A DNA stretch of 40,482 nt. It comes from Bacteriovoracaceae bacterium (GTDB taxonomy: Bacteria; Bdellovibrionota; UBA2394). This document shows, in pieces, positions 17,511 through 22,028 of the stretch (positions within the stretch are counted from its first letter, which is position 1; every line of letters starts with the position of its first letter). The stretch covers positions 1-40,482 of the forward strand of contig JAQBPA010000117.1 in assembly GCA_028287765.1 (NCBI GenBank). The letters are read 5' to 3'. Made by a program: the position numbers and the translations under genes. The notes under the pieces are model-generated. The model had not been told where the DNA came from, made no database searches, and saw only the letters and a program-made list of their open reading frames with translations.

Positions 17511-18592
17511 TCATTGAGGAAGAATTTAAGAATTTAGAAGAAAAATCTCAAGACGCTCGCCTGGTGTCTCCCAAATTTGATCGGGACGAACTTTCGAATT
17601 TGCGTCCAACCAGCCTTGAGAGTTTTGTTGGCCAAGAAAAATTAAAAAAGAATCTGGCCGTTTTTATTGAGGCAGCAAAAAAAAGAAAAGAAGCGCTCGA
17701 TCACGTTCTTCTCTCCGGACCTCCAGGCCTCGGAAAAACAACTCTCTCTCATATTGTTGCGCGTGAGCTCGGCGTTAATATTCGCGTCACAACCGGACCT
17801 TCGATTGAAAAAACGGGCGATCTAGCTGCTCTTCTCACGCATTTAGAACCTTTTGATGTTCTTTTCATCGATGAGATTCATCGGCTACCTCGAACGGTTG
17901 AAGAAATTCTTTATCCTGCGATGGAAGATTTTAAACTGGATCTCATGATCGGCGAAGGCCCGACCGCAAGATCTCTTCGGCTCGATCTTCCGCCTTTTAC
18001 TTTAGTCGGCGCGACGACAAGATCAGGCCTTCTCTCATCACCGCTTCGGTCTCGATTTGGAATTCCTCTGCACTTGGAATTTTATTCGGATGAAGAGCTC
18101 ACCACGATTGTTCTTAGGTCTGCATCCATTCTCAATATGAAAATAGAAAAGAATGCGGCGCTTGAGATTGCAAGACGTTCGCGAAAAACGCCGCGGATCG
18201 CTAACCGACTTTTAAAGCGAGTGAGAGACTTCGCGGAGATTTCTGGAAAAGACACGATTGATTTGAAACAAGCGGACTATGCACTTCTTCAACTCGAAGT
18301 GGACCAGCAGGGATGCGATCCGATGGATCGACGGCTGCTCTCGCTCATCATCGATCAATTTGGCGGAGGCCCGGTTGGAATTGAAACGCTTTGCGCGAGT
18401 CTCCAAGAAGAACGAGACACCATCGAAGATATTTACGAACCTTATTTACTTCAAGCAGGCTTTCTCTCAAGAACTCCGCGGGGCCGCATCGCGACTGACC
18501 TTGCCTATACTCATCTTCAAAAGAAGCGAAATGCGTCTCAACAAGGAAGTCTTTTTTCGGGACAAATCGAAGTAAAAGATTCCATCGTCTAA
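17507..18592 (+). CDS. ruvB: Holliday junction DNA helicase subunit RuvB
   Basis: [79 protein letters not shown]. Confidence 0.95.
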
Positions 18593-18713
18593 GACGCCTT
18601 TTTCTGACTCGGCAAAAATGATCTAGCTCACGAAACGAATGCGATTTTCAGTGAGCTTGCTGCTGCGCCCAAAAAGATCCGGGTGGTAAAATATTATAGA
18701 GAGCAGGTGAAAA

Positions 18714-21071
18714 GTGAACGCGGTTAAAGAGGCAACTAAGTTCTACGAAGGATTACAAAATCATATTTTAAATAGCCCGCATCTTTCACCGCTTCGAGAA
18801 TATTTACCCGTCACACCTGCACAACTTCGAGATTACAATTTTTGTCGAAATCTTCACGGCACTACGATGTTAAAAAGTTTTGGTAATTCGAATCTTTCGA
18901 ATTTAATGCTTCGTGCGATTGATGAGTATATTCGAAACGATTTAAGAATTCCTTCACTTGCAAAACGTTTTGATCCAAAAGTTCTCGAGAGCGTTCAGAC
19001 CATGCATGCAAAAGGACATGCCGATTTATCTCCGCTTTCGTTGCAAAAAGTAAAAGAAATGCGGGATTATTTTTCTGCACAAAAAGTTTACGGTGCGGAC
19101 AATAAAACTCTCATCTCACTGGAAGAAGCTTCGGAGCGCCTCAATATTGCCAACTATCCCGTTGAAACCATTTTGGCGAGCCCACATCTGATGTCCATCG
19201 CCGCTGATCCTGAGATTCTTTCAATTGTCGAAAATTATCTTGGAACGGTTCCGACAATATCTGTCGTCGCTACCTGGTGGTCGTTCGCCGGAAAAGAAGC
19301 GCCCAAAGACGCTCAACTCTTTCACTACGATTACGACGACTATCGATTCTGTAAGCTCTTTCTTTATCTCACGGATGTCGATATGGATTCCGGCCCTCAC
19401 TGCTACGTTGAGAGCACACATACTCTCGAAAAAATTAAGCAAGTTCGAGAAAAATGCGCGAACGAAAGTGAACTCGCCGAATTTGATAAAAGTTATATGC
19501 ATAGTCTTCGAAAGACAGATGCCGATATTCTGAAATATTTCGGAAGTCCTATTTATCTTACGGGTAAAGCGGGTTCACAATTTCTCGTCGATACACGCGG
19601 CATTCATAAAGGACTCTTGCCCACGAAGAACAATCGGCTTCTTTGCCAAATTACATACGGAGTATCGCCGCTTCTTCAAGATAAACCCACCAGCATTCGA
19701 CTTGGAACTCCAGAATCGAAGAATATTCCAGCATCAATCAATGAATCCCCGTACAATTATGTGGCAAGAATGTTTGTGGAACCGGATCCTGCCGTCGAAC
19801 AAAAAAATTCTGAAGTCATTATTCTCGATAATGTTGATCATTGGGATTCAAAAACAGTCGATCATTTTATCGGAACTATTTTTAAAAACGAAGACACCAA
19901 AAAAGCGATTAGTTTGATGCTTCAAACTCGAGACGATAAGATTACTTCCTACAATGAACTTCTGACCGCTCTCAGAAATCTTTTCAGAGATAATATTGAA
20001 TGGGCAGCTCGCGATCCAAACCACAAATTGATTGAATATCTGCGCGAGCTTTCGAATTATGAACAGCTCGTAAATCGAAGTCTTACGGCTTATAATCCCA
20101 AACTAAAACCGAATCCCGGTGCAGTCTTTTGGCCAAACCCTACAAACGATCCCAAAAACTCACTCTTTGAAACTCTTCCTATTGCCGTTCGCCATCCCAT
20201 TGTCTCTAAAGAAACTCCCATCGGCTCAGCCGGAAGTTGTTTTGCTTTTGAGATCTCTTACTATCTGCAAGAGAGAGGATTTAATTACGTTGTCACTGAA
20301 GAGGGTCAAAACGCCGACAAAGGAATTTTGATCGAGGGCTTTGATCCCGCAGTTCCCTACGAAAAGTTTTGCGCGAATTGGGGAATATTATTTAATACAC
20401 CAAGTTTTAGACAACTTGCAGAAAAAGCTTTTGGTAAACGAAAACTTCCTAAAATTCTTGTTAAAAAACATACGCCGGATCCTGCCGGAAATGATTTTAC
20501 ATTTTATGTTGATCCATTTCGGGAGAATGTTTTCTTCTTGAGTCCTAAAGCTTATGAAGACAACTACCAGGAACATCTGGAAGCCACCCGAAAAGCGCTT
20601 CTTGAAACAAAAGTTTTTATTCTTACCCTTGGACTCAACGAGTGTTGGGAATTTATAAAAGACGGCTCAGTCGTTTCTAGAAACCCACATACGACTGTCG
20701 CCTACAGCTTACTTCGCCATCGAACATTAACGGTCGAAGAGAATGTTGCCAATATTCAAGCCTTCATTGATATCGTTCGCGAACATAATCCTGATTTCAA
20801 AGTGATCATCTCGGTCTCACCCATTCCTTTTCTTGCGACCGGACGAGCCGACGAACAACATGTCATCACCGCAAACGGCCACTCCAAAGCAATTCTTCGA
20901 GTGGCGGCGGAAGAGCTCGTAAAGAAAAATAAGGGAGTGTTTTATTTTCCGAGTTTCGAAATGGTTGGCCACTGCATTCAAAATCCGTGGGAAGCCGATC
21001 AAAGACACGTCACTCGTCCTGCGGTTCAAAGAGTCATGCAGCTTTTTGAAACGATGTTTATGAAGAACTAG
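18714..21071 (+). CDS. Two-domain protein: PhyH-like Fe(II)/2OG dioxygenase + GSCFA (SGNH-like) domain
   Basis: N-terminal half FHYDYDDYRFCKLFLYLTDVDMDSGPHCYVESTH ... DTRGIHKGLLPTKNNRLLCQITYG. C-terminal half IGSAGSCFAFEISYYLQERGF ... FILTLGLNECWEF ... VSPIPFLATGRADEQHVITANGHSKAILRVAAEEL ... ADQRHVTRPAVQRV. Confidence 0.82.
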   Translation: MNAVKEATKFYEGLQNHILNSPHLSPLREYLPVTPAQLRDYNFCRNLHGTTMLKSFGNSNLSNLMLRAIDEYIRNDLRIPSLAKRFDPKVLESVQTMHAKGHADLSPLSLQKVKEMRDYFSAQKVYGADNKTLISLEEASERLNIANYPVETILASPHLMSIAADPEILSIVENYLGTVPTISVVATWWSFAGKEAPKDAQLFHYDYDDYRFCKLFLYLTDVDMDSGPHCYVESTHTLEKIKQVREKCANESELAEFDKSYMHSLRKTDADILKYFGSPIYLTGKAGSQFLVDTRGIHKGLLPTKNNRLLCQITYGVSPLLQDKPTSIRLGTPESKNIPASINESPYNYVARMFVEPDPAVEQKNSEVIILDNVDHWDSKTVDHFIGTIFKNEDTKKAISLMLQTRDDKITSYNELLTALRNLFRDNIEWAARDPNHKLIEYLRELSNYEQLVNRSLTAYNPKLKPNPGAVFWPNPTNDPKNSLFETLPIAVRHPIVSKETPIGSAGSCFAFEISYYLQERGFNYVVTEEGQNADKGILIEGFDPAVPYEKFCANWGILFNTPSFRQLAEKAFGKRKLPKILVKKHTPDPAGNDFTFYVDPFRENVFFLSPKAYEDNYQEHLEATRKALLETKVFILTLGLNECWEFIKDGSVVSRNPHTTVAYSLLRHRTLTVEENVANIQAFIDIVREHNPDFKVIISVSPIPFLATGRADEQHVITANGHSKAILRVAAEELVKKNKGVFYFPSFEMVGHCIQNPWEADQRHVTRPAVQRVMQLFETMFMKN

Positions 21072-21083
21072 ATCACGGTGGGG

Positions 21084-22028
21084 CTAGCCTTTCGTTCCAA
21101 CGACTCGCCTCTCTCGGCTCGGCCTTTCAATTGGTTGTTCATGCACTTCCTTTTTCACTTTGAAACACATGGGATCATGATCCAGCAGCACACAGGTCTG
21201 CTGGGCTTTTTCCATCAGCTCGTTTCCTTTTTCAAAATCTTCTTCTTCGAGTCGATAGCCTTCCAGATAAATTTTATGAGCGGCCTTAAAAACTCGATTT
21301 TCTAATCGATCCAGATCGTCCGATTGAAATCGATTTCTAAATCGTCGGATTTCTTCGGCGGCTGCGAGCGTATTTTGATCTTTTAAGTAATCGACAATAA
21401 GCGCTCTCGAAAACTGCGCTTCGAGGACCTGCGCGGGTCGCAGAGTTCCGCACTCTGCATGCCTTTCACTTTCGAGTGTGCTTTCTATCGAATCAAGTTC
21501 TGCTCTCGATTTTGCCCACTGCTTTGTCTTTAAAGACGTTTGAAAACTCTTTTTTAGCTCACCTAAATTTCTAAAAAACATTTGCTCTGCTGCATCACCC
21601 TCAGATGTCCCCCAAGCTCCGCTTGAAATTTTTTCGAGCCGTCTCGAGCAGACAATGTGCTTATTTGAGCCAGAATTTAAAAGAAGGCTATGCACGAGAA
21701 AAATGAAAAGAAGGCCTGTTAAGAAAACGATCGATGCCCAACGAATTTTTTTTGAGAAAAGATTGAAGGCCTTCCACTGGCAAACAAAAGATTGAATTTG
21801 AAAAATTTCACCGGCCTCTATCTTTTCAATCCGATCCTCTTCTAGATAATGGATTTCTTCGGCTTTAAAATCGACGCGGGCAAAAAAGCCTGGAAGATCC
21901 TTTAAATAAACGTCCGCCGTTTTATCTGTGCCAAAAAGGATTTCATCTCGAATAAAAAACCTTTGTTTGATCTTCGCAGAGTCCGGGCTCCACACTCGAA
22001 TGGAATGAATAAAGTGAGGGAGTCTCAT
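21084..22028 (-). CDS. Membrane protein with degenerate FHA-like N-terminus, Tad-cluster associated
   Basis: RFFIRDEILFGTDKTADVYLKDLPGFFARVDFKAEEIHYLEE resembles an FHA fold; TM segment IVFLTGLLFIFLVHSLLL; overlaps the upstream TadB/C-like gene. Confidence 0.5.
   Translation of the reverse strand: MRLPHFIHSIRVWSPDSAKIKQRFFIRDEILFGTDKTADVYLKDLPGFFARVDFKAEEIHYLEEDRIEKIEAGEIFQIQSFVCQWKAFNLFSKKIRWASIVFLTGLLFIFLVHSLLLNSGSNKHIVCSRRLEKISSGAWGTSEGDAAEQMFFRNLGELKKSFQTSLKTKQWAKSRAELDSIESTLESERHAECGTLRPAQVLEAQFSRALIVDYLKDQNTLAAAEEIRRFRNRFQSDDLDRLENRVFKAAHKIYLEGYRLEEEDFEKGNELMEKAQQTCVLLDHDPMCFKVKKEVHEQPIERPSRERRVVGTKG

Follow-up and report, generated by a model that had tools for sequence, protein, structure and literature searches.

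A GSCFA protein fused to a PhyH-type oxygenase, a candidate two-step tailoring enzyme for nonulosonic acids

The stretch of DNA analysed here (the window; 40,482 nucleotides, contig JAQBPA010000117.1) comes from the draft genome of a Bacteriovoracaceae bacterium (G000; 2.84 Mb, 76% complete), and carries a single-copy gene with a GTG start whose uninterrupted reading frame (18714..21071, forward strand, as are all features below) encodes a 785-residue protein. Its N-terminal half is a PhyH-type Fe(II)/2-oxoglutarate (2OG) oxygenase and its C-terminal half a GSCFA protein. The initial annotation had placed both domains on one 785-residue chain, which the single open frame at 18714-21071 bears out, and all of the motifs that it quoted are present: His204 and Asp206 (FHYDYDD), His298 (GIHKG) and Arg308 (NNRLLCQ) in the oxygenase half; Ser508/Cys509 of the GSCFA motif, Asn642 (GLNECW) and Asp762/His765 (DQRH) in the GSCFA half. 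The helical linker of about 110 residues that it drew between the domains must be redrawn. A stand-alone GSCFA protein from a relative in the same taxonomic family (G001) aligns through its N-terminal part with residues ~369-455, which are confidently modeled as four helices with high pLDDT; this segment (residues about 368-455, 19815..20078) belongs to the GSCFA protein, as its helical N-terminal domain, and the true joint between the halves comprises about 10 residues. Sequence searches gave no match in the PDB and nothing useful in NCBIfam or PHROGs.

The two halves were folded separately with AlphaFold, and as had been anticipated the first adopts a PhyH-type and the second an SGNH-type fold. 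The expected Pfam matches materialized for one half: GSCFA (PF08885) scores 150.2 bits against a curated cut-off of 25, while PhyH (PF05721) covers residues 110-268 of the oxygenase half with 15.1 bits against 22 (E 0.029). Homologs of this half do better, with a separate oxygenase in a family relative matching Pfam PhyH at E 3.4e-4 and a fused homolog in Calothrix passing the cut-off (50.8 bits, E 3.4e-13). The oxygenase domain (residues 1-365, 18714..19808) is further delimited by its separate homolog adjoining the GSCFA gene in relatives. Its model (pLDDT 87.6, from a 12-sequence alignment) has 425 PDB matches under 1e-3 by Foldseek, the best at E 1.4e-9, headed by SnoN, SnoK, GriE, AviO1, HygX and KanJ (E about 1e-9 to 1e-8). 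Sugar-acting enzymes, namely HygX, AviO1, EvdMO1 and KanJ, are among the nearest solved oxygenases. The double-stranded beta-helix is accompanied by the expected HxD..H ligands and 2OG-binding Arg, all invariant in 12 relatives: the predicted iron ligands His204-x-Asp206 (19323..19331) and His298 (19605..19607), and Arg308 (19635..19637), the predicted ligand of the 2OG carboxylate. Because the predicted fold settles its identity despite the sub-threshold Pfam score, we assign the N-terminal half by modeled fold and ligands as a PhyH-type Fe(II)/2OG oxygenase, not as a member of Pfam PhyH. Members of its PhyH subfamily also occur elsewhere, e.g. as the rear part of a fusion with a family-2 glycosyltransferase at a polysaccharide locus (G052, L015:8710-10842) and amid sugar-nucleotide genes on phage-type contigs (L149-L151 and L153, the last also with a NeuB homolog).

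The GSCFA catalytic domain (residues 503-778, 20220..21047) matches PF08885 with E 1e-43 and contains the eponymous motif. The model of this half (residues 368-785; pLDDT 91.3, 36-sequence alignment) finds as its best Foldseek match the peptidoglycan O-acetylesterase Ape1 (E 1.6e-4, prob 1.0), followed by CE2 esterases, PAF-acetylhydrolases, the transferase PatB and sialate O-acetylesterases. TM-scores are low (0.2-0.5) and the topology match is partial, so the SGNH assignment holds at the level of fold only. Block I would fall on the GSC motif, where Cys509 occupies by motif the position expected of the Ser, with Ser508 beside it (20235..20240), and both are invariant in 36 GSCFA domains, as is Gly557 of block II (20382..20384), the predicted oxyanion-hole Gly. 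The block III Asn and block V Asp-x-x-His are both present as Asn642 (20637..20639) and Asp762-x-Arg764-His765 (20997..21008). The nucleophile is thus probably Cys509 rather than the classical SGNH Ser, a reading based on motif position and on one in vivo mutant of the distant homolog PipG, whose GSCFA-motif Cys is needed in vivo (PMC12828459). No binding site for acyl-CoA or an acyl carrier was identified in the fusion protein.

The gene lies, as first described, alone between ruvB and a Tad-like cluster. The arrangement of ruvC-ruvA-ruvB converging on this cluster is kept in four family members that lack the fusion gene, which indicates that the gene was inserted at the junction. Across the window (18592-21084) and L174-L177, this junction is either empty or occupied by an 84-aa gene, by an unrelated gene of ~320-330 aa (as in G003 and G004) or by the fusion; it is possibly an insertion spot. 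The Tad genes are probably not partners of the fusion gene, and a function in Tad pili was set aside, since Tad is a neighbor only and relatives carry different genes at the junction. A toxin or defence role was likewise set aside as unsupported. No NRPS/PKS cluster occurs at the locus, the neighbors being ruvCAB and the Tad-like genes.

A search of genome contigs with the whole protein returned no relative, and an alignment of the GSCFA domain was then used as query against one genome per species (84,980 species), keeping the best 80 loci. Among these matches, about 14 loci form a close set with 35-59% identity to the GSCFA half of the fusion, the remainder being ordinary GSCFA, and the tree separates the close set with support of 100/100. 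The GSCFA domain of the window therefore belongs to a rare monophyletic subfamily. Within the phylum, a survey of 369 genomes matched the GSCFA half only in the host and in G001, where separate neighboring genes encode the two halves, with GSCFA ahead of PhyH and thus in reversed order. Viral contigs contain oxygenase relatives as well as two GSCFA matches of the ordinary kind, and no fusion.

Across 15 close-set loci (counting the window and L136, and leaving out the truncated L055), 11 of those listed pair the GSCFA gene with an oxygenase. The PhyH pairings comprise N-terminal fusion in the window, C-terminal fusion in Calothrix (L049), and unfused genes that lie next to (L042), directly upstream of (L043) or convergent with (L051) the GSCFA gene. 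The remaining pairings involve a divergent HxD..H..R oxygenase-like domain without a Pfam match, here HCDox, which is fused ahead of GSCFA in L048, L050, L136, L045 (a gene truncated where its contig stops) and L044 (as three tandem genes), and is encoded convergently to it in L046. Profile comparison by hhalign relates HCDox to the PhyH group at E 1.1e-7, with the HxD, distal His and Arg aligned. No linked oxygenase was seen in the other four subfamily loci (L047, L052-L054). In the tree of PhyH domains, the Calothrix oxygenase groups with PhyH proteins of nonulosonic acid (NulO) clusters, apart from the group of the window. By these sequence relationships PhyH domains have been recruited to GSCFA at least twice, in addition to the divergent HCDox, and a pairing that arose more than once suggests a shared pathway step rather than an accident. 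The fusion itself is uncommon, its exact single-gene order occurring only in the window among the matches listed. HCDox, beside Maf, flagellin or NulO synthase genes in L048, L050, L044 and L136, looks like an undescribed 2OG-oxygenase family in its own right.

The close set also differs from ordinary GSCFA in its active site. Residues were compared over 78 domains, 17 from the close set and 61 ordinary, among the matches listed. Asn642 is matched in 16 of the 17 and replaced by Thr in all 61; the block V His is found in all 17 and in none of the 61, so that every ordinary domain lacks both SGNH residues. A PipF- or WcbI-like SGNH protein is adjacent or fused to 44 of the 61 ordinary domains and to none of the 17 (again among the matches listed). 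Genome-wide, PipF-like proteins were missing from 14 of the 15 close-set genomes, with no match in G001 or the 76%-complete host, in a search that found four positive controls; the genome that does have one (G380/L054) carries the most divergent close-set member, and the one without the Asn. PipF-like proteins keep an invariant Ser and His and a nearly invariant Asp. Their profile comparison with GSCFA is not significant, with the alignment placing DQRH on DATH. From these residue patterns we infer that ordinary GSCFA proteins act as partners of a Ser-dependent SGNH protein, and that in the branch to which the fusion belongs the active site is complete within GSCFA itself. The ordinary loci (L037-L121), often polysaccharide loci whose GSCFA genes are mostly adjacent or fused to PipF-like or WcbI-like SGNH proteins, suggest a general two-subunit acyltransferase, one subunit of which has lost its catalytic residues.

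The surroundings of the close set point to NulO metabolism. Among the matches listed, a NulO synthase or Maf gene is found no more than about 7 kb away in 8 of the 15 loci. A NeuB/PseI-type synthase adjoins the GSCFA gene in L044 (about 2 kb), L045, L047, L048, L049 and L136 and lies about 7 kb away in L052, and Maf and flagellin genes stand beside it in L048 and L050. No NulO synthase occurs within loci L043, L046, L051 and L053, and the L043 genome has neither Maf nor PseI over its cut-off. PseI exceeds its curated cut-off in 11/15 carrier genomes compared with 3/40 ordinary-GSCFA genomes (p=3e-6), and Maf/MptE-like proteins are found in 9/14 compared with 3/40 (p=6e-5), among the matches listed; both p-values overstate the case because carriers and controls differ in taxonomy. 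Unfused relatives of the oxygenase half within the phylum adjoin NeuB, PseB and PseC (L016-L018, L029, L033). The host encodes PseI (518 bits, cut-off 340) and PseH (120, cut-off 93) in one cluster with a cytidylyltransferase, the WbuX amidotransferase, HisH and HisF2, a gene content that points to acetamidino-pseudaminic acid. It also encodes flagellins and four Maf-type (MptE-like/Maf) proteins, one adjoining flagellin. By gene content the host thus combines pseudaminic acid synthesis with Maf, and its fusion gene is not near its NulO or Maf genes.

We tentatively propose, at slightly less than an even chance, that the fusion is a two-step tailoring enzyme that hydroxylates and then O-acylates pseudaminic-type surface sugars for transfer by Maf. 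In the first step, the PhyH-type domain, with His204, Asp206 and His298 binding Fe(II) and Arg308 binding 2-oxoglutarate, would hydroxylate a C-H bond of a nonulosonic acid (a sialic-acid-like sugar of pseudaminic or legionaminic type) or of an acyl substituent thereof. In the second, the SGNH-like GSCFA domain would transfer a short acyl group to a hydroxyl, most simply the newly made one, with Cys509 serving as the nucleophile alongside the pair His765 and Asp762 and an oxyanion hole from Asn642/Gly557. The outcome would be a sugar both hydroxylated and O-acylated, passed by Maf-type transfer to flagellin. The folds of both halves, the residue conservation, the recurrent convergent pairing and the association with pseudaminic acid and Maf genes are computed observations; that a NulO is probably what the fusion hydroxylates and acylates is suggested by the genes for NulO synthesis and flagellin attachment that adjoin its relatives, and the acyl donor, the order of steps and the choice of transfer over hydrolysis are likewise proposals. 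For the subfamily as a whole, a shade more doubtful, we envisage a GSCFA branch with a Cys nucleophile and a standing 2OG-oxygenase partnership, making hydroxylated and O-acylated NulOs for Maf-dependent flagellin glycosylation. The original suggestion of a hydroxylase coupled to an esterase or acyltransferase acting on a surface glycan, lipid or secondary metabolite is thus partly supported: its domains and active-site residues stand, a surface glycan is the more likely kind of substrate, and lipid and secondary metabolite are less supported.

The closest characterized parallel is the pathway to pseudotetraivprolide, in which acetylation of the hydroxyl introduced by the dioxygenase PipE requires PipD, PipF and the GSCFA protein PipG together (PMC12828459); detoxin-type clusters have the same kinds of genes (PMC9503745). 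This system, together with the detoxin, rimosamide and miramide clusters, likewise unites a GSCFA protein and a 2OG dioxygenase in one pathway, and since PipG is needed for O-acetylation after the dioxygenase, it favors acyl transfer over hydrolysis for the fusion. PipG, for which alone among GSCFA proteins functional data were found, works in a complex and needs PipF and PipD, which leaves its own chemistry open. Moreover, the PipG system has separate proteins, a TauD-type oxygenase, an NRPS/PKS context and an obligatory SGNH partner in PipF, whereas the fusion has one chain, a PhyH-type oxygenase, no NRPS/PKS neighbor and no PipF, and keeps the Asn and His. Ordinary GSCFA proteins (PF08885; Alphaproteobacteria and others) share the domain and its invariant GSCFA, T-GL-E-W and SPVPL motifs, and differ in lacking the SGNH Asn and His and in being mostly adjacent or fused to PipF-like or WcbI-like SGNH proteins, among the matches listed. 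Nearer at hand are the HCDox-GSCFA proteins of marine gammaproteobacteria (L044, L048, L050, L136), which belong to the same GSCFA subfamily, have an N-terminal HxD..H..R domain, and are encoded beside NulO synthase, Maf and flagellin genes; their oxygenase differs from that of the fusion in being divergent and lacking a Pfam match (the hhalign E of 1.1e-7 given above). HygX, AviO1, EvdMO1 and KanJ resemble the N-terminal half in fold and facial triad, and differ in acting on antibiotic oligosaccharides or aminosugars. We know of no GSCFA partner for these four enzymes. On the product side, Campylobacter flagellin carries Pse5Am7Ac8OAc and di-O-methylglyceroyl-Pse, known decorations that represent O-acyl and substituted-acyl (hydroxyacyl-type) versions of the proposed product; the genes for them were called uncharacterised in 2010 (PMC3068675).

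It is somewhat unlikely, though to be taken seriously, that the same two activities serve a different substrate (another glycan sugar, a lipid or a small metabolite), in which case the NulO link would stem from the type of bacterium in which the gene occurs. The locus in the host has no NulO link, a fused acyl-CoA mutase immediately precedes the G001 pair, L043, L046, L051 and L053 lack a NulO synthase, and DRL systems apply GSCFA to peptides; against this weigh the 8/15 loci that have a NulO synthase or Maf gene at a distance of about 7 kb or less and the rarity of PseI or Maf in ordinary-GSCFA genomes (both among the matches listed), and the unfused oxygenase relatives inside NulO clusters. 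The C-terminal domain might instead strip an acyl group rather than add one, making the fusion a hydroxylase and esterase. This we consider improbable: the best Foldseek matches are O-acetylesterases (Ape1, CE2 and sialate esterases) and the full SGNH residue set is retained, but PipG is required to add and not remove an O-acetyl group (PMC12828459), the WcbI partners of the GSCFA family carry a putative acetyltransferase annotation, the context is biosynthetic, and Foldseek also matches a transferase, PatB.

Less probable again is a non-enzymatic GSCFA half that serves for binding or complex formation and offers the oxygenase its sugar. Such a role would accord with the PipG motif Cys, whose part is unexplained while PipF holds the important Ser and His (PMC12828459), and with the loss of Asn and His from ordinary GSCFA domains among the matches listed, but sits poorly with a subfamily that keeps Cys, Asn and His in genomes of which 14/15 lack a PipF-like protein (four positive controls found). 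That the fusion is an artefact, whether because an error in assembly or sequencing merged two neighboring genes or because they fused by chance and without meaning, is very improbable. The window does come from one 76%-complete draft genome, and the exact PhyH-GSCFA single-gene order is confined to it among the matches listed; against an artefact, the frame is open and unbroken across 2.3 kb, the unfused pair directly adjoins in the same order in L043, a reversed fusion occurs in Calothrix, and GSCFA is fused to another oxygenase in five further loci.

GSCFA was listed in a 2022 review as an SGNH family without function or structure (PMC9487903). As far as our searches show, each domain family is known, and their combination, the catalytically complete GSCFA branch and the NulO/Maf link are undescribed. 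The literature found on GSCFA describes neither a fusion to an oxygenase nor a connection with NulOs, that on the Campylobacter NulO decorations assigns no GSCFA or PhyH gene, and titles and abstracts on NulOs and flagellin draw no link to phytanoyl/2OG oxygenases, with subscription literature mostly outside the scope of these searches. If correct, the proposal for the subfamily as a whole would provide the first function for this GSCFA branch and one answer to how hydroxyacyl and O-acyl NulOs are made. With a full catalytic set, no need of PipF and an oxygenase on the same chain, the fusion offers a clean system for establishing GSCFA function, and the NulO/Maf link gives it a concrete, testable substrate class.

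Several further genes merit separate mention. In G001, a gene for a fused B12-dependent acyl-CoA mutase (C15, L013:5923-10375; IcmF-like, with B12-binding, MeaB and mutase domains) overlaps at its end with the GSCFA gene, and the mutase might supply or share an acyl donor. The host has a second, ordinary PhyH oxygenase in a sugar/aminotransferase locus (G000:C162, L129:6041-6877). Finally, the contig of the window encodes, about 29 kb downstream of the fusion gene, an 889-aa flagellin (L019:9444-12113), an unusual filament protein in which Flagellin_N and Flagellin_C flank a large insert of FG-GAP repeats.
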